This document shows positions 36,029-54,877 of a DNA stretch of 64,000 nt, piece by piece; the stretch's first letter is position 1, and each line of letters starts with the position of its first letter. The stretch is from contig NZ_CP033043.1 in the NCBI RefSeq assembly GCF_003667825.1, positions 1,055,001 through 1,119,000 of the forward strand. Reading direction: 5' to 3'. This DNA comes from Metabacillus litoralis (GTDB lineage Bacteria; Bacillota; Bacilli; Bacillales; Bacillaceae). Below the pieces are notes generated by a model. It ran no database searches. It saw only the letters and a list, made by a program, of their open reading frames with translations, and had not been told where the DNA came from. The position numbers and the translations under genes are program-made.

Positions 36029-36372
36029 ACCCTACACCTCATTGATTCATGTTTTACTCATTGTAGCACACGTCCTAGAAAAACCTAAAAATGATGCTCG
36101 GAATTTGATGAACGTTTACTAATGTCTAAAATATTTTAATATTCTCAATAAGCAATAAAAATGGATAGTGTGAAAGATATCCTTAAACAGTGTAATTCTG
36201 GTTTTACTAAAATTGTTTTTTATGAAAGACTTTAGTTTAAATATATTTTAGGGAATTTATGTAAAAGTTTATTGACAGAAAATTTTAAATAGTATATCTT
36301 AGTTATAGAGTTACTGGTAATGACAACCTGACATGATGATAACCTTACAATAGACGCTACGAGGTGATGACA
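36029..36372 (+). promoter_or_regulatory. Promoter region of the GntR gene
   Basis: In this AT-rich space between frnE-like and gntR genes, TTGACA (36272-36277) and TATCTT (36295-36300) are 17 bases apart, a good sigma-A promoter for the regulator. Downstream, TGACA-ACC-TGACA (36326-36338) is a short repeat that could be an operator. The rest shows nothing else. Confidence 0.65.
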
Positions 36373-37113
36373 TTGTTAAAACATGAAATTGATAAAGAAA
36401 GTCCTGTTCCCCTTTATGCACAGCTAAAGGAAATCATTAAAGATGAAATAAATTCCTCAAACTTTAAGCCAGGGCAATTGATTCCCTCAGAAAGAGAATT
36501 AGTTGATCTTTTTGAAGTAAGTAGACCAACTGTTCGGCAAGCTGTTAACGAACTTGTGAATGAAGGGATATTAAATAAAAAGAAAGGGTTAGGAACTTTT
36601 GTTGCCAAGCCAAAAATCAGACAGCAGTTCCTAGAAAATTTAACAAGTTTTCAAAATGAAATGAGAGAAAAGGGTCTTCCTTATGCAACAAAAGTAATTG
36701 ACATGAAAGAAGTGAAAACAAATAGTTCCTTGAAGGAGATATTTGGTGAGCACCATACTGATTTCTTCTACTTAGAAAGACTGCGGTATATTAATAATAA
36801 TCCGGTTGTTCTTGTTTCCACCTATATTCCAAAGTCTTTGGCAGAAGGATTATTAAGTGAGGATCTTACAAATGTATCCCTATATGAAACTTTACAATCA
36901 AAATATGGCCTCCAGATTCATCGAGCAATTAGAGTGATGGAAGCGGTAAATTCCTCAGATTATGAATCTAAGTTTTTAGAAATTGAGCCAGATGCAGCTA
37001 TTATGTTTATTAAAACAACAGGATATTTACTAAATGATGAGATTTTTGAATATTCCATCGCACGCTACCGTGGAGATTTAAGTACATTTACTGTCAATAT
37101 TTCAATATCTTGA
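36373..37113 (+). CDS. GntR-family regulator with UTRA domain (HutC subfamily)
   Basis: A 246-residue regulator. The winged helix covers residues 1-75 (ERELVDLFEVSRPTVRQAVNEL is the recognition region), followed by a UTRA effector-binding domain (about 95-240). This is the FrlR/NagR/YvoA type, which often senses sugar phosphates, including amino-sugar phosphates. A TTG at 36373 is placed correctly after GAGGTGAT; GTG 36364 and ATG 36367 overlap that site. It precedes and probably controls the sugar-import and catabolism genes that follow. Confidence 0.9.
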   Translation: MLKHEIDKESPVPLYAQLKEIIKDEINSSNFKPGQLIPSERELVDLFEVSRPTVRQAVNELVNEGILNKKKGLGTFVAKPKIRQQFLENLTSFQNEMREKGLPYATKVIDMKEVKTNSSLKEIFGEHHTDFFYLERLRYINNNPVVLVSTYIPKSLAEGLLSEDLTNVSLYETLQSKYGLQIHRAIRVMEAVNSSDYESKFLEIEPDAAIMFIKTTGYLLNDEIFEYSIARYRGDLSTFTVNISIS

Positions 37114-37481
37114 AGAACTTCATAAGTCTCTCTTCAGAAGTTCGAACAATTAAAACGAACTGCTAAGAGAGCAAGTTTTAACCTTAACTTTCTTTTGTAA
37201 GGGTTTACAATTATCAGAATTTCTCTAACACATCTTCTATTCTATTTTCTAAGCCAATTTACCTTACTAATTTCTTAGCAAACATCCTCCAAGAAATCAT
37301 CTTACAAGCTAATTCTACTAACTTCTAGATCATCCATATATGCAAACTGCACAACTATTACCTTTTTATTACATTACTTATTAAAAGTCTTATTTGTCTA
37401 TAATTTTGAAAGGGGTGAGAAGGAGAACCTTTATCGGAGCTATGGGGGTATTTATTATGTGAAAAATAAGGGGGAGTTTTC
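37114..37481 (+). promoter_or_regulatory. Control region before the first sugar-importer operon
   Basis: A 368-base space. GAACTTC (37115-37121) and GAAGTTC (37137-37143) form an inverted repeat just past the gntR stop. TGTAAGGGTTTACA (37196-37209) matches the CcpA cre consensus at 13 of 14 positions and is a near-perfect palindrome. The rest is AT-rich and presumably contains the operon promoter, which I could not fix. Confidence 0.55.
37196..37209 (+). promoter_or_regulatory. cre-like site
   Basis: TGTAAGGGTTTACA matches 13 of 14 cre positions, with G for C at the seventh. It suggests carbon catabolite control of the sugar locus. Confidence 0.55.
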
Positions 37482-38513
37482 ATGAAAAAAAGATTTGGAA
37501 ATTTTGCTTTATTTCTATTTCTCATATTCGGTTTAGTTGGTTGTAACCAATCAGAAGGAACATCAGGTGAAAGTGACAGTAATTCTGAAGGCGCTTCCAA
37601 TGATGGAGGGGAACCACTAGAAATCTCTGTTATTATCAAAGCAACTGATTCTGGGTTTTGGCAAACAGTACTTCAAGGTGCAAAGGCAGCAGAAGAAGAA
37701 TTGGGTAACAAGGTGAAAATTACAACAGATGGTCCACCTTCCGAAGCAGATATTGATGAGCAAGTAGCGATTTTAGAAAACACAGTTACACGTCAGCCTG
37801 ACGGTATTGTCATTGCATCAACGAGTTCGGATGCAACAGTACCTGCAATTGAAAATGCGATGAGTCAAGATATTCCAGTAGTATTAGTAGACAACAAAGT
37901 AAATACAGAAAATTTCACTAGCTTTTTAGCAACAGATAACTTGGTTGGTGGTGCACTAGCAGCTGATAAATTAGTTGAACAGCTAAAAGCACAAGGAAAA
38001 GAACTAAAGGGAAAAGTAGGAGTCATTAGTTCTATGGCAGGAGTTAAGGTGCTTGAGGATCGTGATCAAGGATTTATTGACCGTATGGCAGAAATAGCAC
38101 CAGATATTGAATTGCTTAAAACTCGCTATGTAGATAATGATATATCTAAAGCATTAAGTGCAGCACAAGATATTATAACAAGTAATCCAGATGTTCTAGG
38201 CTTCTTCGCTGATAATAACCATACTGGTATTGGTGTTGGTCGTGCTGTAACAGAGCAAGGATTGGCAGAGGATATACCGGTTGTAGCATATGATGCTGAT
38301 GAAGAACAAATTAATTCTCTTAAAGCTGGAGCCATAGATGTACTAATTGTTCAGGATCCATTTGGTATGGGATATCAAGGAGTTCTAAATGTCATTGACA
38401 GTATCGAAGGAAAAGAAGTTGAAAAAACAGTTGATACAGGGGTAACCGCTGTGTCCATGGAAAATTTTGAAGAAGAAGATATCCAAAAGCTACTCTATCC
38501 TGAAAAAAGATAA
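37482..38513 (+). CDS. Sugar ABC transporter substrate-binding lipoprotein (system 1)
   Basis: A 343-residue lipoprotein of the RbsB-type periplasmic-binding family (Peripla_BP_4). The signal peptide ends in the lipobox LVGC with Cys21, followed by a Ser/Gly/Glu-rich linker. The binding domain starts at ISVIIKATDSGFWQTVLQG. Motifs such as RQPDGIVIASTSS and VVAYDADEEQINSL are typical of monosaccharide binders. GGGGGAG precedes the ATG. It begins the system 1 genes; the ligand is unknown. Confidence 0.92.
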   Translation: MKKRFGNFALFLFLIFGLVGCNQSEGTSGESDSNSEGASNDGGEPLEISVIIKATDSGFWQTVLQGAKAAEEELGNKVKITTDGPPSEADIDEQVAILENTVTRQPDGIVIASTSSDATVPAIENAMSQDIPVVLVDNKVNTENFTSFLATDNLVGGALAADKLVEQLKAQGKELKGKVGVISSMAGVKVLEDRDQGFIDRMAEIAPDIELLKTRYVDNDISKALSAAQDIITSNPDVLGFFADNNHTGIGVGRAVTEQGLAEDIPVVAYDADEEQINSLKAGAIDVLIVQDPFGMGYQGVLNVIDSIEGKEVEKTVDTGVTAVSMENFEEEDIQKLLYPEKR

Positions 38514-38575
38514 ATAGATTTTGAGGCTGCCTGAAGCTCAAGCCAAAGGCCAGCCTCATTAAAGGAGGAAAAAGA

Positions 38576-40066
38576 ATGCCTAAACCTCTTGTAGAAATGA
38601 AACAGATCGTTAAGAAATTTAAAGGAACTGCTGCTCTTAAAGGAGTGGATCTTGAAATACAGCCAGGAGAGATACATGCTTTACTAGGAGAAAATGGAGC
38701 AGGTAAAAGTACACTTATTAAGATCCTAACAGGGGCTTATATACCAGATGAAGGTGAAATTATTGTTAAAAATCAAAGCTTTAAGGCAATCCCTGTTAAA
38801 GAACTTGAAAAGCTGGGAATTGCTGTTGTTTATCAAGATTTAAAGTTAGCTCCTGGTGTATCCATAGCAGAAAATATTTATATGGGTAAACTTCCTAAGC
38901 GTTTTGGTGTTTTTGTTAATAAAAGGAGAGCTAGAGAACAAACCAAGGTTGCTTTAGATAGAGTAGGGATTGGAGATACTGATCCAGATACTAAGGTTGG
39001 AGATTTAAAAATAGCTGAGCAAGAAATCGTTGCGATTGCAAAAGCAATTTCTAAGGATGCTAAGTTACTTATTTTAGATGAACCAACTGCCTTATTAGCT
39101 GAAGATGATGTGAAAAAACTTTTCAGAATCTTAAAGGAATTAGTTGCACAGGGTGTATCAATTATATATATATCACATCGGTTAGAAGAAATTTTTGAAA
39201 TATCCGATAGAATTACTGTTTTGAGGGATGGTAATAAAATTTGGACGAAATCGGTTTCTGAAGTTCAAAGTGATATGTTAATAGAAGCAATTGCAGGAGA
39301 AATGCAGGGTAATGATCAAGTGTATGACCAAATTCAGATTGGTAAAGAACTTTTACGTATAGAGCAATTAACGAATTTTCCTCATTACAAAAACATTTCA
39401 TTCTCTATTCATAGAGGGGAAGTAGTTGGTTTATTTGGATTAGTTGGAGCGGGGAAGAGTGAACTTTTAAAGGGGATTTACGGTGCAATACCACCTCATT
39501 CAGGAAACATACATATAAATGGGCTACCCTTTACTCCTAAACATCCTCGAGATTCTATTAAAAATAAAATTGGTTTTGTTGCGGAAGATCGTGGAACAGA
39601 GGGATTTCTACCTCGAATCTCTATTTATAAAAATGTAAACATTGCCTCATATAAACATGCAGCTACTTTAGGTTTCATAACCGCTTCAACTGAAAAGAAA
39701 CGTGCCCTTGAGATGATTCAGAGTTTTAATGTTAAATACAGCAATCTTGATCAAAACATTGATGATTTGAGTGGAGGAAATCAGCAAAAAATAGTTGTAG
39801 CGAAATGGAAAGGAACCGATATAGAAATTCTTTTACTTGATGAACCAACTGCCGGAATAGATGTTGGAGCTAGACGTGATATTTACAAAGTGTCAAGGTT
39901 GTTAGCAAAAGAAGGGAAATGTGTATTGTACTCATCGTCATATTTACCAGAGTTATTAGAAGTATGTGATCGAATTCTTGTACTAAGTGAAGGGGAAATT
40001 ACTGGAGAGTTTTCTAGATTAAATGATTTTAATGAAAGGAACATTATGAAAGCTGCCTATGCCTAA
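38576..40066 (+). CDS. Sugar ABC transporter ATPase, two domains (system 1)
   Basis: A 496-residue RbsA/MglA-type ATPase with two ABC domains. Domain 1 has Walker A GENGAGKSTLIK and Walker B LLILDEPTALL; domain 2 has GLVGAGKSELLKG, a full LSGGNQQKIVVAKW signature and LLLDEPTAGIDVG. As in the family, domain 1's signature is degenerate. It powers uptake with the permease that starts 20 bases downstream. AAAGGAGGAAAAAGA precedes the ATG. Confidence 0.95.
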   Translation: MPKPLVEMKQIVKKFKGTAALKGVDLEIQPGEIHALLGENGAGKSTLIKILTGAYIPDEGEIIVKNQSFKAIPVKELEKLGIAVVYQDLKLAPGVSIAENIYMGKLPKRFGVFVNKRRAREQTKVALDRVGIGDTDPDTKVGDLKIAEQEIVAIAKAISKDAKLLILDEPTALLAEDDVKKLFRILKELVAQGVSIIYISHRLEEIFEISDRITVLRDGNKIWTKSVSEVQSDMLIEAIAGEMQGNDQVYDQIQIGKELLRIEQLTNFPHYKNISFSIHRGEVVGLFGLVGAGKSELLKGIYGAIPPHSGNIHINGLPFTPKHPRDSIKNKIGFVAEDRGTEGFLPRISIYKNVNIASYKHAATLGFITASTEKKRALEMIQSFNVKYSNLDQNIDDLSGGNQQKIVVAKWKGTDIEILLLDEPTAGIDVGARRDIYKVSRLLAKEGKCVLYSSSYLPELLEVCDRILVLSEGEITGEFSRLNDFNERNIMKAAYA

Positions 40067-40086
40067 ATTGTTTAGGAGGATGAAAC

Positions 40087-41073
40087 ATGGATGAAAAAAC
40101 TGTGGTTGTCAATAATTCAAGGAAAAGCCAGAGTATGCTCAACTTGAATTTAAATTTTCTCTTAAAGATATCACTACCATTAATTCTTTTATTAATGTGG
40201 TTAGTCATTACCTTAATAGATCCAGTGTTTATTTCATTTAATAATTTAACAAACCTAGGAAGACAAACAGCCATAATCGCTATCGTAGCAATTGGTCAGA
40301 CATTTGTCATCATTACAAAGGGGATTGATTTATCTGTTGGATCAACTCTCGGTTTATCTTGTGTTGTTTCTGCATTGTTACTAGTTTCAGGCATTCCAAT
40401 TATGTTAACGATTATTGTCGTTACAGTAATAGGTATAGTAATAGGGTTAATAAATGGACTAATTATTTATGATATGAAAATCACACCATTCATTGCGACG
40501 CTTGGAATGATGACAATGGTTCGTGGTGCGACCCTCCTAAGTAGTGATGGGGAAATTGTCTCTGGAATGCCAAGAAGTTTTACAAGAATCGCTAATTCTG
40601 AAATATTTGGAATTCCTTATTTAATTTTAATATTGGTAGCTATTTGCATTATTTTCATGTGTGTTCTTCGATTTACCGTTTTCGGAAGAAATTTATTTGC
40701 GATTGGTAGTAGTGATGAAGCAGCACTATTATCCGGTGTAAATGTTCGCATGACGACATATGGGGCTTATATGATTTCTGGTGGGTTATCCGCGTTAGCA
40801 GGTATTTTAATGACCTCACGATTAGCAAGTGGTGTCCCAACAGCTGGTCAAATGTATGAGTTAGATGCGATTGCGTCAGCAGTTATCGGAGGAGCTAGCT
40901 TATTTGGAGCTCAAGGAAGTGTAATCGGAACTGTGTTTGGCTCTTTCATTATGACAACTTTACGTAACGCAGGTAACTTGTTAGGAATAGAGCCGTTTTG
41001 GCTGCAAATTGCTATCGGTGCCTTGTTAGTGATTGTTGTGTTTTTTGATCAACTTCAAAAGAAACGAGGGTAA
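40087..41073 (+). CDS. Sugar ABC transporter permease (system 1)
   Basis: A 328-residue RbsC-type permease (BPD_transp_2) with about nine membrane helices. The diagnostic stretches are GQTFVIITKGIDLSVGSTLGL and the coupling-loop region GRNLFAIGSSDEAALLSGVN. One permease gene is present, so it probably forms a homodimer. TTTAGGAGGATGAAAC precedes the ATG. It completes system 1. Confidence 0.94.
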   Translation: MDEKTVVVNNSRKSQSMLNLNLNFLLKISLPLILLLMWLVITLIDPVFISFNNLTNLGRQTAIIAIVAIGQTFVIITKGIDLSVGSTLGLSCVVSALLLVSGIPIMLTIIVVTVIGIVIGLINGLIIYDMKITPFIATLGMMTMVRGATLLSSDGEIVSGMPRSFTRIANSEIFGIPYLILILVAICIIFMCVLRFTVFGRNLFAIGSSDEAALLSGVNVRMTTYGAYMISGGLSALAGILMTSRLASGVPTAGQMYELDAIASAVIGGASLFGAQGSVIGTVFGSFIMTTLRNAGNLLGIEPFWLQIAIGALLVIVVFFDQLQKKRG

Positions 41074-41097
41074 AATGCGAAGAAATTGGAGGGGAAA

Positions 41098-41961
41098 ATG
41101 TTGACATATCCTAAAAGTCTGAATGATACTACAACTCTTAATAATGGTGTTGAAATGCCTTGGGTAGGATTAGGTGTTTTTATGATGCAAGATGGTAAGG
41201 AAGCAAGTGATGCTGTGAGATGGGCCGTTGAGGCAGGTTATCGAAGTATTGACACAGCTGCTGTTTATAAGAATGAAAAATCAGTGGGGCAAGGAATAAA
41301 AGATTCAGGAATAGATCGTTCAAAGCTTTTTGTTACCTCTAAAGTATGGAATTCTGATTTAGGATATGAGTCAACGCTAAAAGCCTTTCAATCTAGTTTA
41401 AAGCGATTAAAGCTAGATTACTTGGATTTATATCTTATTCATTGGCCAGTTGAAGGTAAATATAAAGATTCATGGAAAGCATTAGAAAAACTATATAAAG
41501 ATGGCTACGTTCGTTCAATAGGTCTAAGCAATTTTCACCAAAACCATATTGAAGATATATTAAGCGTAGCAGATGTCATTCCTCAGGTTGATCAAATTGA
41601 ATGTCATCCTAAATTAAATCAAAAAGAACTAATTAAGTATACAAAACAGCATCAGATTCAATTTGAAGCTTGGAGTCCATTAATGCATGGAGAATTATTA
41701 ATGGATAAAACAATTGTTCAAATTGCAAAAAAGTATAGGAAAACACCTGCACAACTATTAATTCGCTGGGATCTTGAGAACGGCCTAGTGACAATTCCTA
41801 AAACTAGTAAAAAAGATCGTATTGAAAGTAATGCAGATGTATTTGATTTCACTATTGAAGCAGAAGATAGAAAGATACTCGATTCAATGAATGATGGTTC
41901 ACGTTGGGGTCCTGATCCAGATGATTTTGATTTACCAGAGGTCTTAAATTTAGAAGATTAG
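41098..41961 (+). CDS. Aldo/keto reductase (AKR5 type)
   Basis: A 287-residue NADPH-dependent TIM-barrel reductase, similar to B. subtilis YvgN. The catalytic tetrad is visible as Asp and Tyr in SIDTAAVYKNE, Lys in VTSKVWNSD and His in YLIHWPVE. The coenzyme-binding IPKTSKKDRIESN follows. ATG at 41098 follows GGAGGGG; an earlier TTG overlaps that site. It lies between the importer and the kinase, so it may reduce or oxidise the imported sugar or an aldehyde from it. The specific substrate is unknown. Confidence 0.92.
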   Translation: MLTYPKSLNDTTTLNNGVEMPWVGLGVFMMQDGKEASDAVRWAVEAGYRSIDTAAVYKNEKSVGQGIKDSGIDRSKLFVTSKVWNSDLGYESTLKAFQSSLKRLKLDYLDLYLIHWPVEGKYKDSWKALEKLYKDGYVRSIGLSNFHQNHIEDILSVADVIPQVDQIECHPKLNQKELIKYTKQHQIQFEAWSPLMHGELLMDKTIVQIAKKYRKTPAQLLIRWDLENGLVTIPKTSKKDRIESNADVFDFTIEAEDRKILDSMNDGSRWGPDPDDFDLPEVLNLED

Positions 41962-41987
41962 TTGAAGAAGTAAAGGAGATGTTTTTG

Positions 41988-43511
41988 GTGAGGAAGTTAA
42001 TCGTCGCCCATGATGTGGGAACAACTGGTAATAAAGCAACATTATATTCTAGTAACGGAGAATTAATCCATAGTGCATTTTATGGATACGAAACTAACTA
42101 TCCTGAATCGAATTGGGCAGAACAAAATCCTGCTGATTGGTGGGAGGCAGTATGTGTAACAACGAACGAGCTTTTACAACACCAAGATGTCAAGAGGGAA
42201 GAGATTGCGGTTGTTAGTTTTAGTGGGCAGATGCTTGGTTGTCTGCCAGTAGACCGTAATGGAAATCCACTTCAAGATGCCATTATATGGGCTGATATGC
42301 GAGCAAGTAATCAAGCTATAGAATTAGAAAAAAAATTAGGTATGGAATTTGTTTACAAAACTACAGGCCATCGAATTAGTTCTTCATACTCAGGAGCAAA
42401 AATAAAGTGGCTGAAAGACAACAAACCCGATATTTTTAATAAAACGTATAAATTCTTACAGGCAAAGGATTATCTAGCCTATAAGTTAACGGGTGTTTAT
42501 GCAACAGATTATTCAGATGCGTGTGGTACAAATTGTCTTGATATTTTGAAGAAAACTTGGTCAAAAGAAATTCTTTATGCTTGGGAGTTGAGTGAAGATC
42601 TTTTTCCGAAATTGCATGCCTCAACAGATATCATTGGGTATGTGACAAAGGAAGCAGCAGAAAAAACTGGTTTATTAGAGGGTACGCCAGTGGTGATTGG
42701 TGCTGGTGACGGAGTCTGTGCAGCTGCAGGGGTAGGGGTTATTGATGAAGGAGAAGCATTTAACTATATTGGTTCTTCTTCCTGGATTGCATTAGCATCA
42801 AATCACCCAGTATTCGACCCAGAAATGAAGACGTATACATGGATTCATGTGGATGAAAATAAATATTCTCCAAATGGTACGATGCAATGTGGTGGTGGAT
42901 CCGTTCAATGGATAACAAACCTATTATATCAAAACAAGTGTGACAAGTATGACTTGATGAATCAAGAAGCAAATCAATCACCCGTGGGCGCCAATCAGTT
43001 AATCTATCTGCCTTATTTAATGGGTGAAAGATCCCCTAGATGGAATCCTGATGCCAGGGGCACGTTTGTAGGGTTATCTATCACTCATTCTCGAGGAGAT
43101 ATGGCTAGATCTGTGATGGAGGGTGTAGCTTTTAATCTTAGAATTGTTTTGGATACTTTTAGGGATGCTGGTGTACATGTTGAAAATATGTGGGTACTTG
43201 GCGGTGGTGCTAAAAGTGAATTATGGAGGCAAATTCTTTCAGATATTTACGATGTTAGGATCGATGTTCCCTCTTATTTAGAGGAGGCCACTTCCATGGG
43301 AGCAGCTATGGCTGGTGCTGTTGGTTGTGGAGCAATAAAAGATTTCCAAGAAGCAAAAAAATGGATTAAAAAAGTAGAAACATATGATCCTATTAAACGA
43401 AATCAAGAGACGTATTCCGGATTATATGACATTTTTAATGAAGCGTATAACCAGCTGATTCCTGTATTTACGAAACTAAAAAATCAAAAAAGTAAAGGAG
43501 TTCTCATATGA
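41988..43511 (+). CDS. FGGY-family carbohydrate kinase
   Basis: A 507-residue kinase of the xylulokinase/FGGY family, phosphorylating a sugar or polyol with ATP. The first phosphate loop is AHDVGTTGNKATLY; the ATP site includes GAGDGVCAAAGVGVI and WVLGGGAKSELWRQI. The GTG at 41988 is well spaced from AAAGGAG; an ATG at 41979 overlaps it. Its stop overlaps the ATG of the next gene (ATGA), coupling the two. Sequence similarity to xylulokinase does not fix the substrate, since the family also includes erythritol, ribulose and autoinducer-2 kinases. Confidence 0.92.
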   Translation: MRKLIVAHDVGTTGNKATLYSSNGELIHSAFYGYETNYPESNWAEQNPADWWEAVCVTTNELLQHQDVKREEIAVVSFSGQMLGCLPVDRNGNPLQDAIIWADMRASNQAIELEKKLGMEFVYKTTGHRISSSYSGAKIKWLKDNKPDIFNKTYKFLQAKDYLAYKLTGVYATDYSDACGTNCLDILKKTWSKEILYAWELSEDLFPKLHASTDIIGYVTKEAAEKTGLLEGTPVVIGAGDGVCAAAGVGVIDEGEAFNYIGSSSWIALASNHPVFDPEMKTYTWIHVDENKYSPNGTMQCGGGSVQWITNLLYQNKCDKYDLMNQEANQSPVGANQLIYLPYLMGERSPRWNPDARGTFVGLSITHSRGDMARSVMEGVAFNLRIVLDTFRDAGVHVENMWVLGGGAKSELWRQILSDIYDVRIDVPSYLEEATSMGAAMAGAVGCGAIKDFQEAKKWIKKVETYDPIKRNQETYSGLYDIFNEAYNQLIPVFTKLKNQKSKGVLI

Positions 43512-44086
43512 AAGAGATGTTTATGCCATTTTCAACAACTTATGAGTTTGAGACTGGAAAACTGAGCCCGGAAGGAAATGTAATCGTCCGAAATTTATCA
43601 CATATGAAAAATATGTTTGTTGATCAAGAAGCAGTAAATGATCGACTAGAAGAAAATCCATTAATCTATGAAGTTTACAATGTAGAGCTTCCTGAAAAGG
43701 TAGAGCATATTCAGCATTGCACAACAATCTTATACCCCGGAAAAATTGGAAATGAGTATTTTATGACAAAAGGACATTATCATGAAGTAATTGATCGAGC
43801 AGAAATTTATTTCTGTTTAAAAGGAAAAGGACAGTTAGTTATGCAGACAAAAAAAGGAGATTTTAAAATATTGGAAATGGTGCCGGGTACAATAGCTTAT
43901 GTTGCACCAGAATGGGCACATCGAACAGTAAATACTGGGGATGAACCATTTATCTTTTTTGCAGCATATCCTGGAGATGCTGGGCATGATTATGGTGGAA
44001 TTGAAGTGGAAGGGTTTGCAAGGCTCTGTTTAGAGGTGAACGGAAAGCCAGAAATGATTGATAATCCTAGATTCAAAGGTAAATAG
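43508..44086 (+). CDS. Cupin-type glucose-6-phosphate isomerase family protein
   Basis: A 192-residue cupin of the archaeal-type phosphoglucose isomerase family. The metal site is seen in TKGHYHEVIDRAEIYFCLKG (two His and a Glu) and the later PEWAHRTVN His. It starts inside the last codon of the kinase gene. In this setting it may interconvert the aldose and ketose forms of the phosphorylated sugar. Most Bacillus cells already have the unrelated Pgi, so this one is likely a dedicated enzyme of the locus. Confidence 0.9.
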   Translation: MKEMFMPFSTTYEFETGKLSPEGNVIVRNLSHMKNMFVDQEAVNDRLEENPLIYEVYNVELPEKVEHIQHCTTILYPGKIGNEYFMTKGHYHEVIDRAEIYFCLKGKGQLVMQTKKGDFKILEMVPGTIAYVAPEWAHRTVNTGDEPFIFFAAYPGDAGHDYGGIEVEGFARLCLEVNGKPEMIDNPRFKGK

Positions 44087-44117
44087 TATTAATTCATAAT
44101 GATAGGTGGGGGAATAC

Positions 44118-45053: not shown

Positions 45054-45133
45054 ATTAAAGAGTTTAAGTAAAGGAAAGTATATGTCTAAAGAAAAACTAT
45101 TATAGAAGTTTACCCGGAATTGGGGTAATAAAT

Positions 45134-46093: not shown

Positions 46094-46116
46094 AAAAGAT
46101 AAGGAGGGTAAAATTG

Positions 46117-47055: not shown

Positions 47056-47084
47056 TTATAGCTTAGGAGTGGAGGTGTGAATTG

Positions 47085-47849
47085 GTGCTACGCTTTATCA
47101 TAACAAAAGACTATCGTGAGATGAGTAAGCAAGCAGCCAAAGCTATCGCAGAAGACATGAGATGGAAAACGCGATATGTTCTAGGTACAGCAACAGGAGG
47201 TACACCTCTTGGAACATATAAAGAGTTAGTGAGACTTTATGAGCAAGGACAAATCGATTTTAGCAATGTGATTTCTTTTGGACTTGATGAGTATATTGGT
47301 TTACCTAGCAATCATGTACAATGCTATACACGATATATGTGGGAAAACTTTTTTTCACACATAAATATACTTAAAACTAACACCAATATGCCACCTGGTA
47401 TCTTTGATGATGCTGAAATAGAAATAAATAACTATGAAAAGAGAATAGAAAATGCAGGTGGAATAGATTTGCAAATATTGGGGGTAGGTCGAAATGGCCA
47501 CATTGGTTTTAATGAACCCGGAGAGGTTTTACATGCAAGGACACACCTTGCCACCTTAACCAAACAGACCATTGAAGATAATGCCAGGTATTTTAGTAGT
47601 ATAGATGAGGTACCAAAACATGCGTTAGCCATGGGTGTGGGGAGTATTTTCAAAGCTAGAAAAATCATATTTATTGCAAGTGGAGAAGAAAAGGCAGAGG
47701 CGGTAAGAAAAACATTTAAAGGATATGTTGATACATACTGTCCATCAACTTTACTTCAAATGCACCCAAACTTAATTGTTATTTTAGATGAAAAAGCTGC
47801 AAGTAAACTTGATTTATCAAGTATTCATAGCAATATAAAAATTATTTAA
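47085..47849 (+). CDS. Glucosamine-6-phosphate deaminase family protein
   Basis: A 254-residue NagB-type protein. Active-site motifs are VISFGLDEYIGL with the ring-opening Asp and GVGRNGHIGFNEPGE with the catalytic His-Glu pair; GVGSI and DTYCPSTLLQMHPN are further family marks. In Gram-positive NagB the GRNGH form is normal. The GTG at 47085 is 7 bases from GGAGGTG; a TTG at 47082 is also possible. It would deaminate and isomerise an amino-sugar phosphate to a keto-sugar phosphate. There is no NagA nearby, so the amino sugar would not come from N-acetylglucosamine at this locus. Confidence 0.9.
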   Translation: MLRFIITKDYREMSKQAAKAIAEDMRWKTRYVLGTATGGTPLGTYKELVRLYEQGQIDFSNVISFGLDEYIGLPSNHVQCYTRYMWENFFSHINILKTNTNMPPGIFDDAEIEINNYEKRIENAGGIDLQILGVGRNGHIGFNEPGEVLHARTHLATLTKQTIEDNARYFSSIDEVPKHALAMGVGSIFKARKIIFIASGEEKAEAVRKTFKGYVDTYCPSTLLQMHPNLIVILDEKAASKLDLSSIHSNIKII

Positions 47850-48130
47850 TTGTTGAATTGCCCAATCACAGGGCTTTTCATATACCCCCGACAGCCAATA
47901 TTAAATTTCTACATAATATTGGCTGGAGTATTTATCATAATATGGAAACCGCTTTCCGTTGGTTACCTAAAGGTTACTAGAGAACAATAATGTTCGTACT
48001 TTAAAGAGAACTCTAAATATTTTATAGTGAAAATGAAGCCAATTTACTAACCTTGTAATATAAAAAATACTTTTTACATTTTTATAGATTCATGCATAGT
48101 GAATTCCCTAAAAGTTAAGGAGGGTTTTAA
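47850..48130 (+). promoter_or_regulatory. Space between the two halves of the sugar locus
   Basis: A short hairpin GCCC-AATCACA-GGGC with TTTT (47860-47878) may end the first operon. A perfect 12-base inverted repeat CAGCCAATATTA/TAATATTGGCTG (47892-47925, 10-base loop) follows, then a palindrome GGAAACCGCTTTCC (47944-47957) that matches cre at 12 of 14 positions. The region probably carries terminator, operator and promoter for system 2. Confidence 0.55.
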
Positions 48131-49642
48131 ATGCCGGATCATTACCGGGTAGAAATGCAACATATTGTTAAAACCTACGGTAAGACAGCTGCGTTAAACG
48201 ATGTTTCACTAAAAGTAGGTGTAGGAGAAATTCATGCGCTAGTTGGTGAAAATGGAGCAGGAAAGTCTACCTTAATGAAAATATTATCTGGTGCTATAAA
48301 AAAGGATTCTGGAAGTATTAAAATAGATGATCAAAATGTAACGGTACGTTCTCCAAATGAAGCTAGGGAGCTAGGCATTGGCATTATTTATCAAGAATTT
48401 GCATTAGCACCAGACTTAACAGTTGCCGAGAATATATTCCTAAACGAAATTAGCCGTAATAAAGGGCTAATAAATTGGTCTAATCTATTTAAAAAAGCAG
48501 ATGAAATCATTAAAACACTTGGTTTTAATATTAATTCCAAAGTCTATGTAAGAGATCTAAGTGTGGCTTATCAACAGGTAATTGAAATTGCAAAGGCCAT
48601 ATCAGGAGAGTTAAAGGTACTTATTTTAGATGAGCCAACTGCGGTGCTTGCTCCATCTGAAACACGCCAACTATTTAAACTTTTATTAAAACTAAAAGCT
48701 GACGGAGTGAGTATCATTTATATATCTCATCGATTAGAGGAAGTTTTTGAAATTGCTGATTCTATAACAACACTTAGAGATGGTCAGGTGACAGGTAACG
48801 TAAACCCAAATGAGGTGGGTGTTGAAGATGTCATTAGTTTAATGATCGGCAGAAATTTGGAAGCGCTTTTTCCGAAGCGAGAAATAAAAATAGGTACTGA
48901 AATATTTAGGGTTGAAGGTATGAATAACCCACCTAAATGTAAAAATATATCGTTTTCCGTTCATAAAGGAGAAGTTTTAGGGATTGCTGGACTAGTAGGA
49001 AGTGGACGTACAGAGTTAGCAAGAGCAATTTTTGGAGCCGATAAGAAAAAAGGCGGAAAACTTTTTTTGGATGGAAAGGAGATTTTTGTGAAATCTCCGA
49101 AGGATGCAGTTCGAAATGGTATAGGCCTAGTACCAGAAAATAGGAAAGCTCAAGGCCTAGTGCTTCCGATGTCAATCAAGATGAATGCTACAATGTCTAA
49201 TTTAAACAAAATTACAAAATATAAAGGATTAATAAAGCATAAGGAAGAGGAAGAACTAGTTAAAGAGTTATCTAAGATATTAAGAATTAAAACTAGCAGT
49301 ATTGATTTGGCAACCGAAAACCTAAGTGGTGGAAATCAACAAAAAGTTGTTTTGGCGAAGTGGTTTAATACAGACTGTCGCATTATTATCCTCGATGAAC
49401 CAACAAGAGGAGTTGATGTAGGGGCAAAGGTAGAAATCTATCATCTTATTAATCAATTAGCAAGTAAAGGAATAGGGGTTATCGTAATATCTTCAGAGCT
49501 CTTAGAAATTATTGGATTGTGTGACAGAGTATTAGTGATGAACAATGCTGAAATCAAAGGGAGTTTATTAAAGTCAGAAATGACAGAGAAAAGCATTATG
49601 ACGCTTGCAATAGGAGGGAAAGAACATGAATACTCAACTTGA
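48131..49642 (+). CDS. Sugar ABC transporter ATPase, two domains (system 2)
   Basis: A 503-residue RbsA-type ATPase. Domain 1 has GENGAGKSTLMK and LILDEPTAVLA; domain 2 has GLVGSGRTELARAI, LSGGNQQKVVLAKW and IILDEPTRGVDVG. It starts the second importer set. The permease gene begins 17 bases before its end, so translation is coupled. AAGGAGGG precedes the ATG. It is clearly related to, but not a recent copy of, the system 1 ATPase. Confidence 0.95.
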   Translation: MPDHYRVEMQHIVKTYGKTAALNDVSLKVGVGEIHALVGENGAGKSTLMKILSGAIKKDSGSIKIDDQNVTVRSPNEARELGIGIIYQEFALAPDLTVAENIFLNEISRNKGLINWSNLFKKADEIIKTLGFNINSKVYVRDLSVAYQQVIEIAKAISGELKVLILDEPTAVLAPSETRQLFKLLLKLKADGVSIIYISHRLEEVFEIADSITTLRDGQVTGNVNPNEVGVEDVISLMIGRNLEALFPKREIKIGTEIFRVEGMNNPPKCKNISFSVHKGEVLGIAGLVGSGRTELARAIFGADKKKGGKLFLDGKEIFVKSPKDAVRNGIGLVPENRKAQGLVLPMSIKMNATMSNLNKITKYKGLIKHKEEEELVKELSKILRIKTSSIDLATENLSGGNQQKVVLAKWFNTDCRIIILDEPTRGVDVGAKVEIYHLINQLASKGIGVIVISSELLEIIGLCDRVLVMNNAEIKGSLLKSEMTEKSIMTLAIGGKEHEYST

Positions 49643-50609
49643 ACACAAAGTGGAAGGAACAGGTAATAAGCTTTCCACAACAGTTATGGACTTCATTCTT
49701 AAATATAACACACTAATTATATTTGCCATTCTATTAATTATTTCTAGCTTCTTATCATCCTCTTTCTTTACTGAAACAAATATTTTTAATCTACTAAGAC
49801 AATTATCTGGGTTAGCCATTATTAGTTTAGGAATGCTTCTTGTCATTTTAACAGGTGGTATAGATCTTTCAGTTGGATCTACTCTAGCTCTCGGCTGTGT
49901 TCTTTCTGCTTACTTACTCCAAACAATGTCACTCCCACTGGCATTAATATGCACAGTGATAAGTTGTATATTGTTAGGGGCCGGTTCGGGATACCTTGTT
50001 GCTAGAAGAAATATTGCTCCATTTGTTGTGACGCTAGCTTTAATGACTATTGCTAGAGGGATTGCTTTTATGGTTTCAAAAGGAACACCGATCGTAACGG
50101 AAAACGCTTTCATTCTTTCGTTAGGAGCAGGTTCATTTTTACGCATACCATATCTCGTTTGGCTAACTCTATTCATCTTTTTAATTATTGCGTTTGTTCT
50201 AAAATACACAACCTTTGGAAGAATGATCAAAGCAGTTGGAAGTAATGAAGATGCAGTTAGGTTGTCTGGTATTAATGTTAGTCGTTATAAATTCATGGTT
50301 TATACCATTTCTGGAGGATTAGGTGCGATTGCAGGAATTATAAGTACATCAAGAACTGGAGTAGGTTCACCAGTTGTAGGTACTGCAATTGAATTGGATG
50401 CTATAGCGGCAGTTGTTATTGGGGGAGCTAGTCTTAGTGGTGGGAGAGGTACAGCATTAAACACATTAGTAGGTGTACTAATATTAGGGATGATTGGAAA
50501 TATAATGAATCTCATGAATGTACCAGCTTATCCTCAACAGGTTATAAAGGGCATCATTATTATACTGGCGGTTTTATTACAAGGAATTCAAAGTAAAAGA
50601 TCTAATTAA
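49626..50609 (+). CDS. Sugar ABC transporter permease (system 2)
   Basis: A 327-residue RbsC-type permease with about nine membrane helices. The typical LVILTGGIDLSVGSTLALG and GRMIKAVGSNEDAVRLSGINV segments are present. The ATG at 49626 follows AGGAGGGAAAG inside the end of the ATPase gene. It pairs with the following binding protein. Gene order here (ATPase, permease, binding protein) is the reverse of system 1. Confidence 0.94.
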   Translation: MNTQLEHKVEGTGNKLSTTVMDFILKYNTLIIFAILLIISSFLSSSFFTETNIFNLLRQLSGLAIISLGMLLVILTGGIDLSVGSTLALGCVLSAYLLQTMSLPLALICTVISCILLGAGSGYLVARRNIAPFVVTLALMTIARGIAFMVSKGTPIVTENAFILSLGAGSFLRIPYLVWLTLFIFLIIAFVLKYTTFGRMIKAVGSNEDAVRLSGINVSRYKFMVYTISGGLGAIAGIISTSRTGVGSPVVGTAIELDAIAAVVIGGASLSGGRGTALNTLVGVLILGMIGNIMNLMNVPAYPQQVIKGIIIILAVLLQGIQSKRSN

Positions 50610-50726
50610 ACCCGATTTACTTCATAGTTACACTAAAATCCTGATCCATAAAGAGACTTGAAAGGAGGTGATAGTAAACAAATAATGAGTAAAAAACAAT
50701 ATTTTTAAATGAGAGGGGAAGGAATT

Positions 50727-51755
50727 TTGAAAAAACTAAGAAGGGTGTTTGTTCTTGTATTTACACTTTGTTTAATGGGAAGTTTGCTCATAGCGTGTTC
50801 AAATGAAGGAACACAACCAACAACCGCAGACGCACAAACGAACACAGGAAAAAAAGATTTAGGAGATATCACAATTGGTCTTTCTATGCAAACCCTAGGT
50901 GCACCATACTTTGTTGCACAGCAAAAGGCAGTAGAAAAGAAAGTAGAGGAGCTTGGTGTTAAGTTGATCTCTGCAGATGCACAAGGAGATCTTTCAAAAC
51001 AATTAGCTGACGTAGAAGATATGCTTTCTAGACAAATTGATTTATTGATTATTAACCCGGCAGATCCTGAAGGTGCAGTAGCTGCAACAAGATCAGCAGC
51101 AGCAGCAGGAGTACCTGTTTTTATCATGGATAACTCTATTTCTCCTGAAGCAGACTATGTATCTATGATTCAGTCAAATAATTTGGCTAACGGTGAACAA
51201 GTAGGTCAATGGCTAGCTAATAAAATGGGGAAAACTGAAATCAAACTGGGTATTTTAAGTGGAAACCAAGGAAACCTTCTTGGGGTTGATAGAAGAATAG
51301 GAGTTATAAAAGGAATCGTTGAAGAACAGCTAAGACAGTTTAGTGAAACTAACTTTAAGGTCGTTACACAAGGATGGGGAGATTGGGCACAAGAAGGCGG
51401 GCTTTCAGCAGCAGAAGATATGCTTGTAGCTAGTCCAGATATGAATGTATTAGTAGCCGAGAATGACAGCATGGCACTTGGTGCGGTAAAAGCAATTGAA
51501 AATGCAGGAAAAGAAGATGATATTTTAGTGCTTGCTGCAGCTGATGGTCAGAAAGAAGCATTAGAGCTAATTAAGGAAGGAAAATATGGGGCTACAGGAT
51601 TAAATAATCCCGCATTAGTAGCAGAAACAACTGTAGATACAGCAATTAAATACCTTCAAGCCGAAGCGAATATTCCAAAATTAATCAATACAGAACCTGC
51701 TGTTATCCACATTGATAATGTTGATGATTATTATAATCCTGACTCTGATTTCTAA
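50727..51755 (+). CDS. Sugar ABC transporter substrate-binding lipoprotein (system 2)
   Basis: A 342-residue RbsB-type lipoprotein. The lipobox is LLIAC with Cys24. The binding domain starts ITIGLSMQTLGAPYFVAQQKA and includes RQIDLLIINPADPEGA and VLVAENDSMALGAVKA, close to ribose-type binders. The TTG at 50727 follows GAGGGGAAGG; an earlier ATG overlaps that site. It differs strongly from the system 1 binding protein, so the two importers probably take different ligands. Confidence 0.92.
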   Translation: MKKLRRVFVLVFTLCLMGSLLIACSNEGTQPTTADAQTNTGKKDLGDITIGLSMQTLGAPYFVAQQKAVEKKVEELGVKLISADAQGDLSKQLADVEDMLSRQIDLLIINPADPEGAVAATRSAAAAGVPVFIMDNSISPEADYVSMIQSNNLANGEQVGQWLANKMGKTEIKLGILSGNQGNLLGVDRRIGVIKGIVEEQLRQFSETNFKVVTQGWGDWAQEGGLSAAEDMLVASPDMNVLVAENDSMALGAVKAIENAGKEDDILVLAAADGQKEALELIKEGKYGATGLNNPALVAETTVDTAIKYLQAEANIPKLINTEPAVIHIDNVDDYYNPDSDF

Positions 51756-51775
51756 TTGATACAAAAATAAAAAAA

Positions 51776-51801
51776 AGAAACCAGATATACTCATGGTTTC
51801 T
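51776..51801 (+). terminator. Hairpin after system 2 binding protein
   Basis: AGAAACCA pairs with TGGTTTCT across a 10-base loop. No T tract follows, so readthrough into the aldehyde dehydrogenase gene is possible. Confidence 0.55.
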
Positions 51802-51912
51802 AAAGATAAATATAAACTTAAATATAAACTTATTTTTATTTTAAATTAAATGACTGTTTTAAACAAATAAAATATAAATCTTAAGTAATTGCAAGGTAGG
51901 TGGGTTTGATCA

Positions 51913-53349
51913 ATGAAGATGTTAGTAGGCGGCAAAAAAATCAATGCTAAGGATAATGATTACTTAGAGGTGGTTAACTCCGCGACACAAGAGTTTATTG
52001 ATACAGTACCAAATGCAACAATCGAGGATGTTCAACAGGCAATTAGTATAGCGCAGAAAGGAAAAAAGGTCTGGAGATCAATGTCTCCAAAAGATAGAGG
52101 GGATATTTTATTACGGTGTGCTGAAGCAATTGAGCAGCAACAAGAAGAGCTTGCTACATTGCTAAGTACTGAAATGGGAAAGGTGATTAGTGAAGCGAGA
52201 GATGAGATTTCTGTCGTCTCTCTTATCTTTAAAAGATTTGTTGAAAAGGCTAATTCTTTGTATGGAGAAACAATAACAAATAATGACTCAGGCAAGGCAA
52301 GTGACATTATTTTTACAAGGAGAGAACCACTAGGGGTTATAGCTTGTATTGTACCATTTAATTATCCTGCAGAGCTATGTAGTCATAAGATTGCACCCGC
52401 TTTAGCAGCTGGTAACGCAGTTATTATAAAGCCACCAACTGATAATCCATTAACTATTATTAGATTAGTAGAGATTTTACTTGAAAATGGTGTTCCTGGT
52501 AATGTAGTGCAAGTACTAACAGGGGATGGAGCATTAATAGGAGGGGAATTGGCAAAAAGTCCATTTATCGACGCAATAAGTTTAACAGGTAGTACTGAAG
52601 TAGGTAAGATTGTGGCAAGAGATTCTGCTTCAACATTAAAAAGAGTGTTTTTAGAGCTTGGAGGCAATGACCCTTTACTTATCTTAGAAGATGCAGATCT
52701 TGAATTAGCAGTAGAGGAGGCAGTAAAGGGTAGGTTAAAAAACGCTGGTCAAACCTGCTGTGCACCTAAACGTTTTATTGTTCATCAAGCAATAAAAGAC
52801 AGATTTATTGAAAAACTCATTGAAAGGTTAAAGCGTGTAAGAAGGGGAGGACCGTTAGAAAATCAAACAGAATTGGGGTCGTTAATTAGTCCCAAGGCGG
52901 TAAACGAAATTCATAGACAGGTGCATGAAACAATGAATCAAGGTGCGAAATGTATTTTAGGAGGCTCTCCGGAATCTACTACTTATTATCAGCCTACGAT
53001 ATTAGTAGATGTAACACCGGAAATGGATGTCGCAAAAGATATGGAAATTTTTGGGCCGGTTTTACCAATCATTGAGTTTGAGTCAAATCAGGAGGCAATT
53101 GAAATAGCAAATAATTCGATATATGGTTTAGCTGGTGGGGTTATAACATCAGACTTCAAGAAAGCAATTGATATAGCAGCAAAGTTAGAATGTGGTTCAG
53201 TTGTTATTAATGGTTCAGGAAACTACCGCAATGTTGATATGCCATTTGGTGGATATAAGATGAGTGGGTTAGGTCGAGAGGGTATTACTTGTACTTTAGA
53301 GGAAATGACACAAGAAAAATCATATGTTTTGAAAAATGTCTTACTATAA
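51913..53349 (+). CDS. NAD(P)-dependent aldehyde dehydrogenase
   Basis: A 478-residue aldehyde dehydrogenase. The catalytic Cys is in NAGQTCCAPKRF, the general-base Glu in LELGGNDPLL, and the coenzyme loop is SLTGSTEVGK. It belongs to the group of succinate-semialdehyde, lactaldehyde and ketoglutarate-semialdehyde dehydrogenases. It may oxidise an aldehyde from the sugar pathway. Since the nearby glucarate genes lack their usual 2-oxoglutarate semialdehyde dehydrogenase, it could also fill that gap. GGTAGGTGGG precedes the ATG. Confidence 0.93.
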   Translation: MKMLVGGKKINAKDNDYLEVVNSATQEFIDTVPNATIEDVQQAISIAQKGKKVWRSMSPKDRGDILLRCAEAIEQQQEELATLLSTEMGKVISEARDEISVVSLIFKRFVEKANSLYGETITNNDSGKASDIIFTRREPLGVIACIVPFNYPAELCSHKIAPALAAGNAVIIKPPTDNPLTIIRLVEILLENGVPGNVVQVLTGDGALIGGELAKSPFIDAISLTGSTEVGKIVARDSASTLKRVFLELGGNDPLLILEDADLELAVEEAVKGRLKNAGQTCCAPKRFIVHQAIKDRFIEKLIERLKRVRRGGPLENQTELGSLISPKAVNEIHRQVHETMNQGAKCILGGSPESTTYYQPTILVDVTPEMDVAKDMEIFGPVLPIIEFESNQEAIEIANNSIYGLAGGVITSDFKKAIDIAAKLECGSVVINGSGNYRNVDMPFGGYKMSGLGREGITCTLEEMTQEKSYVLKNVLL

Positions 53350-53374
53350 TGATTCAAAATAGGAGGGTAAACTA

Positions 53375-54814
53375 ATGAAACGTAAAAATAAGAGTTTTAT
53401 TATATTCTTAACATTACTATTTGTCTTGTCTATTGCATCAAGTGCTTTTGCTGGTGGACCTAAAGGAAAGCCTGATAAAAGTGACAATTTAAAAGTATAT
53501 GATTCAACAATCGACTTTAAGCACTTTGCCTTTGAATTAAATGAAGACAACGGGATGAAAAGTTGGAGTGAAGACGTTAATGATATAACAAATACGACAT
53601 TTAATACCAAAGTAATTGAAAATAAATATATTAAGGTAACACTTCTTCCTGAATATGGTGGTCGAATTATCTCGATGATTGATAAATCAACTGGACACGA
53701 TCTTCTGTATCAAAATCCTGTAGGAACACCATATGGTATGGGGGCAGGGAACTTTTATTATGATTGGTTAATGGTATATGGAGGAATTTTTCCGACATTC
53801 CCAGAACCTGAACATGGAAAAACATGGATGCTACCATGGGATGCTAAGGTCGTAGAACAAACAAGTGAAAAAATTTCTGTTGAAATGAGCTTCACAGACG
53901 ATATCGATTTTTCTGATAAACCATGGAATTTTGACAATGGAAAAACCGGTATTACTGCAGTAAACACTATTACCGTTTATAAAGATAAGTCTTATTTAGA
54001 AATGAATATGAAATTAATTAATAATAAGAACGAACCTGTTAAGTATGAATATTGGACTTGTACAACATTCGCTCCCGGTGGAAATCCTTCTGATATGAAG
54101 ATGGCTGTTCCGATTGAGGAAGTAATGGTAAAGGATGATTGGTGGAGTTGGATGGGAACAGTAGATGAACCAGTGGATAAAGAAAATCATATCTACAAAT
54201 ATGATAAACTATCAATGTTTTCTAACTGGAAAGACATGGGGATTGCCTACGGGCAGGAAGTAAAAGAAAAATGGTGGGGTGTTATCAACACAGATAATAA
54301 CGAAGGAGTAGTAAGGATTGCCGATAATGCCAATGCCACACCTGGATTAAAATTCTGGACTTGGGGTTATGAAGATAGTTATAATACAGATCCTTTAGAG
54401 TTTGGTAACTCTGCAAGACCATATATTGAATTATGGGGTGGCCATTCATCCGAGTTTTTTGAAGATACGTATTTAGAGCCAAATGAAACGAAGGAATGGA
54501 CAGAATACTACTTCCCAACAAAAGGCTTAGAAGATATTACGTCTGCAAATGAAAATGCCTCTGCATATCTTGAATATGAGAAAGGTGAAATTGTAGCGAG
54601 ATTTAATGTAACTGATCCAAAACAACCAGTTAGGGCTACTATCTATAAAAAGACTGGTCAAAAATCAACGAAAGTAACAGAAAAAGTGTTTTCTGGAAAA
54701 CATGTAAATAATTCCGTGTTGTCTAAGAAAATAGCTGATGGGTCGGCTAACTATGAGTTAGTTTTATCAACTCCATCTGGAAAAGAAATATTAAGAGCAG
54801 AGATTAATAACTAA
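53375..54814 (+). CDS. Secreted DUF5107-like protein
   Basis: A 479-residue secreted protein. The signal peptide ends at AFA26 with no lipobox. The N-terminal part contains YIKVTLLPEYGGRIISMIDK followed by GHDLLYQNPVG, which I recognise as the DUF5107 pattern, a beta-rich domain related to galactose-mutarotase-like sugar-binding folds. Many Trp residues (DDWWSWMG, KFWTWGYED, YIELWGG) suit carbohydrate binding. The C-terminal 85 residues look like a separate beta domain. AGGAGGG precedes the ATG and a terminator follows. As an exported protein at the end of a sugar-uptake locus, it may bind or cleave the external source of the sugar. Confidence 0.78.
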   Translation: MKRKNKSFIIFLTLLFVLSIASSAFAGGPKGKPDKSDNLKVYDSTIDFKHFAFELNEDNGMKSWSEDVNDITNTTFNTKVIENKYIKVTLLPEYGGRIISMIDKSTGHDLLYQNPVGTPYGMGAGNFYYDWLMVYGGIFPTFPEPEHGKTWMLPWDAKVVEQTSEKISVEMSFTDDIDFSDKPWNFDNGKTGITAVNTITVYKDKSYLEMNMKLINNKNEPVKYEYWTCTTFAPGGNPSDMKMAVPIEEVMVKDDWWSWMGTVDEPVDKENHIYKYDKLSMFSNWKDMGIAYGQEVKEKWWGVINTDNNEGVVRIADNANATPGLKFWTWGYEDSYNTDPLEFGNSARPYIELWGGHSSEFFEDTYLEPNETKEWTEYYFPTKGLEDITSANENASAYLEYEKGEIVARFNVTDPKQPVRATIYKKTGQKSTKVTEKVFSGKHVNNSVLSKKIADGSANYELVLSTPSGKEILRAEINN

Positions 54815-54831
54815 GATATTCTTTAATAGGC

Positions 54832-54877
54832 AAAAAGCATTGGGATAAGAGCAGATTACTTATACTCAATGCTTTTT
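54832..54877 (+). terminator. Terminator of the secreted-protein gene
   Basis: AAAAAGCATTG pairs with CAATGCTTTTT; the interior has further ATAAG/CTTAT pairing. Confidence 0.88.

Follow-up and report, generated by a model that had tools for sequence, protein, structure and literature searches.

The locus and its layout

The window, i.e. the whole stretch of 64,000 nucleotides of the Metabacillus litoralis genome that was analysed here (NCBI RefSeq assembly GCF_003667825.1, contig NZ_CP033043.1, positions 1,055,001 to 1,119,000), carries a carbohydrate locus of 16 plus-strand genes (36364-54814), followed by the gene of an HxlR regulator (Table 1). The locus was checked by open reading frame (ORF), Pfam and NCBIfam scans, and all the gene families that a first-pass annotation of the same sequence had named are indeed present, on one strand and where it had placed them. 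Its core, which is centered on a shikimate-dehydrogenase-like protein (SDH), appears from sequence comparisons to encode a single uncharacterised oxidative pathway of the sugar-phosphate type that spans several phyla. We put at about 0.5 the probability that the locus serves the breakdown of some unusual sugar or sugar alcohol, which would be oxidised as a phosphate, via a lactone, to the substrate of an aldolase.

Table 1. Genes and features of the locus (positions in the window)
Feature	Position	Strand	Model or basis
GntR/UTRA (HutC-type) regulator, likely local repressor	36364..37113	+	Pfam PF00392, PF07702
SBP1, sugar-binding lipoprotein of importer 1	37482..38513	+	PF13407
ATP1, ATPase of importer 1	38576..40066	+	PF00005, 2 stretches
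PERM1, permease of importer 1	40087..41073	+	PF02653
AKR, DkgA-like aldo/keto reductase (accessory)	41086..41961	+	PF00248
FGGY kinase, proposed ketose to ketose-phosphate	41979..43511	+	XylB model TIGR01312
cGPI, cupin phosphoglucose isomerase, proposed ketose-6-P/aldose-6-P interconversion	43508..44086	+	PF06560
2HAD, D-2-hydroxyacid dehydrogenase, proposed aldonate-6-P to 2-keto-aldonate-6-P	44106..45053	+	PF02826, PF00389
PTE, phosphotriesterase-family lactonase, proposed opener of lactone-6-P	45134..46093	+	PF02126
SDH, shikimate-dehydrogenase-like, cassette marker, proposed lactone-forming aldose-6-P dehydrogenase	46114..47055	+	AroE-family fold
NagB-family protein, role uncertain	47082..47849	+	PF01182, TIGR00502
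Perfect inverted repeat, 12-nt arms, possible hairpin between the two halves	47892..47925	.
ATP2, ATPase of importer 2	48131..49642	+	PF00005
PERM2, permease of importer 2	49626..50609	+	PF02653
SBP2, sugar-binding lipoprotein of importer 2	50709..51755	+	PF13407
ALDH, aldehyde dehydrogenase (accessory)	51913..53349	+	PF00171
DUF5107 protein, probably secreted (accessory)	53375..54814	+	PF17128, 54 bits
HxlR-family regulator, likely part of the downstream half	54989..55375	+	PF01638

The intergenic gaps range from -17 to 99 bp, save for GntR/SBP1 (368 bp), NagB/ATP2 (281 bp), SBP2/ALDH (157 bp) and DUF5107/HxlR (174 bp), and these large gaps make two or more transcription units likely. The interval drawn by the first-pass annotation starts at 36272 on a TTGACA promoter-like hexamer and ends at 54877, the last position of an 11-nt perfect inverted repeat (54832-54877); the promoter- and terminator-like sites of the region are not above those of shuffled sequences, and the inverted repeat that follows NagB is not among the terminator-like sites of the site scan. 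Catabolite control was considered and set aside, the cre-like pattern at 37196 (one mismatch) being at chance level (7 found, 7.1 expected). An exact cre-type match, TGWNANCGNTNWCA, is found at 56952-56965, just 5' of a gene for a transporter of the MFS, with a window total of such matches that is again at chance level.

The conserved core and its distribution

The SDH was used as the marker to find cassette loci. This protein gives no Pfam match at E 0.001 and only weak matches to the NCBIfam aroE models (44.7 bits for TIGR00507, with a cut-off of 200.2, and 57.2 bits for the top-scoring model, with a cut-off of 413), so that the curated cut-offs rule out that it is the shikimate dehydrogenase AroE. 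In an alignment of 40 rows, which are 46-75% identical to the window protein, 57 columns are invariant; K77 and D117 are conserved in 40/40 rows and line up in hhalign with a K and a D of the AroE-like protein of the same genome, which we take to be the catalytic Lys and Asp of AroE. The SDH differs from the shikimate dehydrogenase family, including the 5-ketofructose reductase 7cok, by its scores under the AroE cut-offs, by the lack of a Pfam match and by motifs of its own (VTTHK, GKDxPGSP and HGW). Fold searches returned SDH-family enzymes only among the matches listed (50 per search), and they name no substrate. A search at E 0.001 or better gives 7,993 candidates for SDH-like proteins, which may not all be members of the same subfamily; the 120 listed include a 69% identical homologue from Priestia megaterium.

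Eighty loci were picked from the genome collection by short exact peptide patterns, and together with 3 others and 6 from plasmids they make 89; the counts below use the 71 that are at least 15 kb long, and since the loci are mutually related, the linkage counts are not independent. Eight later Bacillota loci were tallied apart from these 71. The tally of non-core operon genes covers 44 of 61 proteins and shows 25 of 56 families. The record titles of the 80 loci point to Bacillota, Pseudomonadota, Actinomycetota, Planctomycetota, Spirochaetota and others, many of them being metagenome-assembled. The SDH is sparsely distributed in genomes (own genome included, 2/80 in the family, 6/397 in the order, 3/398 in a class sample and 4/398 in a phylum sample), a patchiness that is expected of a pathway that is peripheral and horizontally moved. 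It is also found in 15 plasmid records, six of which were opened. The plasmids of Sinorhizobium meliloti, Marinovum algicola and Lichenicola cladoniae carry the order cGPI-Eda-SDH-2HAD-MBL-regulator, and the other three carry most of the core, with FGGY and dehydrogenases or importers nearby.

The linkage within these loci is extensive. Among the 71, cGPI is found near SDH in 65, 2HAD in 64, FGGY in 52 and EDA, a 2-keto-3-deoxy-6-phosphogluconate (KDPG)-type aldolase, in 49; within 3 kb the first two are still found in 64 and 60 loci, the SDH-cGPI-2HAD trio is complete in 61, and all six functions (these five and a lactonase) are brought together in 35. By comparison, four genomes contain 10 copies of EDA in about 18 Mb, three of which lie in cassettes, which gives an expectation of about 1% per 20 kb, so the linkage of the core genes is beyond chance. 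The eight later loci give a comparable list: cGPI 7, 2HAD 7, PTE 6, FGGY 5, NagB 5, EDA 4, AKR 3, ALDH 0 and MBL 0. The first-pass annotation expected its gene list to be shared as one set by relatives. This is true of SDH, cGPI, 2HAD, the lactonase and the kinase, which, like EDA, are widely linked, and it is not true of the accessory genes, which are scattered (AKR, ALDH and NagB in 5 loci each and DUF5107 in none of the 71, or in 1 of the 89).

Catalytic positions are conserved in several core enzymes. The cGPI matches PF06560 with 93.9 bits (cut-off 20.7) and the solved phosphoglucose isomerase 1j3p with an E of 2.9e-67, and its H90, H92, E99 and H138, presumably the metal ligands, are invariant in 61/61 sequences. 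In 2HAD, R237, E266 and H284 are invariant in 63/63. The FGGY kinase scores 425 bits with the XylB model TIGR01312, over the cut-off of 380.25, and 272.7 bits with a second xylulokinase model, NF011601, below the cut-off of 912. A housekeeping role on glucose 6-phosphate (G6P) and fructose 6-phosphate (F6P) is unlikely, as the M. litoralis genome (G000) has a phosphoglucose isomerase and two G6P dehydrogenases of its own. Against this rejection, two genomes that carry the cassette, G286 and G383, give no G6PD_C match and may thus be without the usual G6P dehydrogenase.

Two unrelated hydrolases at the proposed lactonase step

A lactone intermediate is best supported by the hydrolases that accompany SDH within 6.5 kb: a PTE-family enzyme in 18 loci, an MBL/UlaG-like enzyme in 41, never both, and neither in 12. 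This mutual exclusion (Fisher p 2.8e-9, a value that is only a guide since the loci are related) of two unrelated folds implies that they fill the same, lactone-opening step. The window PTE matches PF02126 with 149.5 bits (cut-off 22.4), and its best solved relatives are 3msr and 3pnz. Its H23, H25, K148, H181, H209 and D267 are invariant in 16/16 sequences, and we take these six positions to be the binuclear metal ligands. Its best NCBIfam model is that of the phospho-furanose lactonases, NF045706. These enzymes of the PTE family, which include the two solved relatives, share its metal-ligand positions, but the window protein scores 167.7 bits, far under the cut-off of 630, and we do not call it a member. 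In the MBL proteins the HxHxDH motif is conserved (25/25), and the match of a representative to the UlaG model is weak. Of the 12 loci that have neither enzyme, six were sampled by a scan of ten unlabelled proteins, and these include one SMP-30/gluconolactonase-like protein (L021) and one Amidohydro_2 protein (L018), two families in which sugar lactonases are known.

Closest related loci and accessory genes

Three related loci help to read the window. In L116, whose SDH is 69% identical, the core forms one run, GntR-FGGY-cGPI-2HAD-EDA-SBP1-ATP1-PERM1-SDH-NagB, with EDA and NagB confirmed by Pfam and headed by a regulator 55% identical to the window GntR. By BLAST labels and by eye, this locus contains no AKR, PTE, MBL, MDR or ALDH, which leaves SDH and 2HAD as its only recognised dehydrogenases. 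L118 has cGPI, 2HAD, importer 1, a ribokinase-like kinase, AKR, PTE, SDH, EDA and NagB. Finally, in L006, importer 2, ALDH, DUF5107 and HxlR lie immediately 5' of FGGY-cGPI-2HAD-SDH. As importer 1 (L116, L118) and importer 2 (L006) each join the core elsewhere, the window resembles the sum of both versions. The best solved relative of SBP1 is 4rxt (E 1.4e-56), with homologues of 70-71% identity beside the core in L116 and L118; that of SBP2 is 4ry9 (E 2.4e-95), and SBP2-type importers are found in 31 of the 71 loci.

The AKR, ALDH, DUF5107 and HxlR look like local additions. The AKR has DkgA as its best NCBIfam model (293.6 bits, under the cut-off of 425) and a 64% identical homologue in L118; the ALDH is closest to lactaldehyde dehydrogenase (483 bits, under the cut-off of 650), with a 65% identical homologue in L006. 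The DUF5107 protein has a signal-like N-terminus by eye and a 53% identical homologue beside ALDH and SBP2 in L006; it may act outside the cell as a sugar-binding or epimerase-like protein. Among solved structures it matches the TPR-domain protein 5cd6 (E 1.7e-10), its matches to aldose 1-epimerases being insignificant. The HxlR gene, with a 71% identical homologue between DUF5107 and FGGY in L006, probably belongs to the locus.

Other genes are found beside the core in relatives. HAD-type phosphatase-like proteins occur in Bacillota (L118:1080-1760 and L119:11185-11859, both Pfam HAD_2, and L003:12254-12895, by eye), and directly after the cassette of L088 (11748-14955) lies a phosphotransferase system (PTS) EIIBC permease, followed, by eye, by a NanE-like epimerase and an RpiR regulator.

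A proposed pathway and its constraints

These enzymes can be arranged as follows. The two ribose-type importers would take up the substrate, which the FGGY kinase would convert to a ketose-6-P, and the cGPI, judging from its intact phosphoglucose isomerase site, would isomerise the latter to an aldose-6-P. The oxidation of this aldose-6-P to a lactone-6-P would fall to SDH, as no other conserved dehydrogenase remains for it; we assign it so because L116 has no recognised dehydrogenase besides SDH and 2HAD. The PTE, or the MBL/UlaG-like enzyme in other loci, would then open the lactone to an aldonate-6-P, which 2HAD would oxidise at C2 to a 2-keto-aldonate-6-P. A KDPG-type aldolase, encoded elsewhere in the M. 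litoralis genome, would finally release pyruvate and a triose phosphate. Such a route would be Entner-Doudoroff-like, with the C2 oxidation in place of the dehydratase. The literature searches show, among the matches listed, neither such a pathway nor a version of it for 3-deoxy sugars; together with the co-inheritance of the genes, this supports the first-pass proposal that an apparently undescribed route for a carbohydrate includes a kinase, an isomerase and the opening of a lactone.

The aldolase raises a question of chemistry. EDA yields pyruvate from 2-keto-3-deoxy acids, which are normally made via a dehydratase. Six probes for relatives of dehydratases detected, in the 71 loci, one IlvD and one Edd-like protein (both in L090, the source of the Edd/IlvD-like probe), one KdgD (L018), and no UxuA, UxuA-like or enolase-type protein; they detected none in the eight later loci, altronate-type dehydratases not being among the probes. 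Likewise, the PF00920 proteins of G000 (two) and of G286 (one), whose cassette includes EDA, are IlvD by TIGR00110 and not Edd. Because dehydratases are rare in the loci and EDA, if it keeps its usual chemistry, needs a 3-deoxy acid, the substrate should already be without its 3-hydroxyl. This leads to a narrower version, unlikely in our view, in which the cassette would be dedicated to 3-deoxyhexuloses or 3-deoxyhexitols, e.g. 3-deoxyfructose. These compounds derive from 3-deoxyglucosone, itself a product of sugar degradation. The sequence would then be 3-deoxyketose, 3-deoxyketose-6-P, 3-deoxyaldose-6-P, lactone-6-P, 3-deoxyaldonate-6-P and KDPG, which gives pyruvate and glyceraldehyde-3-P. 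Such a substrate would give each enzyme of the core a task and would make a dehydratase superfluous; in the window, AKR and ALDH could reduce or oxidise 3-deoxyglucosone, and HxlR could sense the reactive carbonyl.

Several observations weigh against the proposed pathway as a whole. At its entry, FGGY is missing from 19 of the 71 loci, and a KdgK/PfkB-type kinase is present in L002 and L011, no kinase having been identified in the other 17. At the oxidation steps, the nearest PDB sequence to SDH is 7cok, which, at 27 bits, would suggest keto reduction; we know of no precedent for a lactone-forming dehydrogenase in this fold family, and the MDR dehydrogenases of 50 loci are other candidates. 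Neither a PTE nor an MBL hydrolase is found in L116 or L117, and the scheme gives NagB no step. At the aldolase end, EDA is absent from the window cassette, the one copy of the genome lying at G000:C1:88271 beside genes that are KdgK- and UxuA-like by eye, and it is missing from 22 of the 71 loci and 4 of the 8 later ones, which also tells against the 3-deoxy version. A normal hexose would leave a 3-hydroxyl on the aldolase substrate, and to our knowledge KDPG aldolase does not accept such a product. The dehydratase argument is itself incomplete, given the altronate-type enzymes left out of the probes and the further PF00920-like proteins of G383 (672 aa) and G064 (741 aa, weak), and it is weakened for M. 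litoralis by the KdgD, enolase-type and UxuA-like genes that lie downstream in the window (55.7-62.1 kb). Finally, a hexulose-phosphate synthase/isomerase in L121 (both over NCBIfam cut-offs) and L122 (the pair by eye), and a fructose-6-P aldolase-like protein in L118, weigh against either version and imply that the downstream end of the pathway varies.

Two of these neighborhoods can be further described. The 3-hexulose-6-P synthase and 6-phospho-3-hexuloisomerase lie beside the core at L121:11307-12504 and L122:6545-7741, with no EDA detected in either locus. The downstream genes of the window form a second sugar-acid locus (55731-62653), with KdgD (5-dehydro-4-deoxyglucarate dehydratase, over cut-off), a D-galactonate-type MFS transporter, an enolase C-terminal-domain protein (58390-59748), a GntR by eye (59884-60642), a UxuA-family protein (61116-62132) and a TctB protein (62129-62653).

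Other readings of the locus

One can first ask whether the locus is a single unit. The core alone could be one pathway and importer 2, ALDH, DUF5107 and HxlR an unrelated neighbor, as the gap between NagB and ATP2 with its perfect inverted repeat and the near absence of DUF5107 from core loci would suggest. Yet L006 has precisely these genes directly before its core, and SBP2-type importers recur in core loci, so that we hold such a separation to be rather unlikely. A plain ribose, xylose or galactose operon was rejected, as no listed binding-protein or permease model is over its cut-off and such an operon would have no use for the core enzymes.

Other readings keep the locus whole and change its chemistry. 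SDH and the DkgA-like AKR could reduce the keto groups of compounds of the 5-ketofructose or 2,5-diketogluconate type, followed by reduction of a 2-keto acid by 2HAD, a gluconokinase-like action of FGGY and entry of the product into central metabolism. The nearest PDB sequence to SDH and the top model of AKR both point this way, and PMC7954740 describes 5-ketofructose as a substrate reduced both by AKRs and by an SDH-family enzyme. The 2-ketogluconate (Kgu) and ketogluconate (DkgA-GhrB-Idn) routes do resemble the cassette in 2HAD, AKR, the kinase and the MDR/SDR dehydrogenases of relatives, but they have no place for its lactonase, cGPI and SDH, and we consider this option improbable. The first-pass annotation suggested that ammonia could be released from an amino sugar; in such a route NagB would act on an amino-sugar phosphate and supply the isomerase with ketose-6-P. 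The window NagB is over the TIGR00502 cut-off (290.8 for 236.9), the genome has a second NagB at G000:C1:4928609, and in a tree of 19 rows (two starred branches) six NagBs of Bacillota cassettes form a clade of their own (99/99), apart from the sampled chromosomal NagBs. This clade leaves out the NagBs of L116, L018, L011 and the window, the latter being unplaced (that of L117 is not in the tree), so ammonia release from an amino sugar is not supported, and NagB is a frequent partner in the later Bacillota loci only (5/8), not overall. Moreover, the scans of the window cassette show no N-acetyl-sugar deacetylase or sugar PTS, and plain deamination of glucosamine 6-phosphate would give F6P and make the core needless. 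Such a route is quite doubtful. NagB may feed in a ketose-6-P from a 2-amino sugar, or act as a lactonase where none is seen. Least probable, and in our opinion very much so, is a uronate-type route in which the cupin isomerase and a 5-keto reductase would act like KduI and KduD on 4-deoxy-5-keto sugar acids, followed by 2-keto-3-deoxygluconate (KDG) kinase and EDA. The frequency of EDA, the KdgK/KdgA/UxuA-like operon found elsewhere in the genome (names by eye) and the sugar-acid dehydratases just downstream would fit with it, but Pfam and PDB matches place cGPI among the cupins of the phosphoglucose isomerase type, a KdgK-like kinase is found in 3 of the 71 loci and UxuA in none, and no lactonase would be required.

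The oxidative sugar-phosphate pathway that we propose also has its place among known systems. With the Entner-Doudoroff pathway (Zwf, 6-phosphogluconolactonase, Edd and Eda) it would share the oxidation of an aldose-6-P, the opening of a lactone and a KDPG-type aldolase, but the cassette has the SDH-like protein for Zwf, PTE or MBL for Pgl, 2HAD and no Edd, and a cupin GPI in the operon. L-ascorbate utilisation (Ula) uses the lactonase UlaG, to which the MBL hydrolases are similar, and the L121 hexulose-phosphate synthase is related to UlaD; the cassette has instead a kinase and cGPI.

Significance

The retention of this gene set over many phyla points to a widespread nutrient that is without a known breakdown route, and the cassette gives a context to a large family of dehydrogenases now labelled as shikimate dehydrogenases. 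If the substrates were indeed 3-deoxy sugars, this would imply a new activity in the shikimate dehydrogenase fold, that of a lactone-forming sugar-phosphate dehydrogenase, and the cassette would represent a bacterial sink for the 3-deoxyglucosone products that arise in browning, glycation and litter decay.

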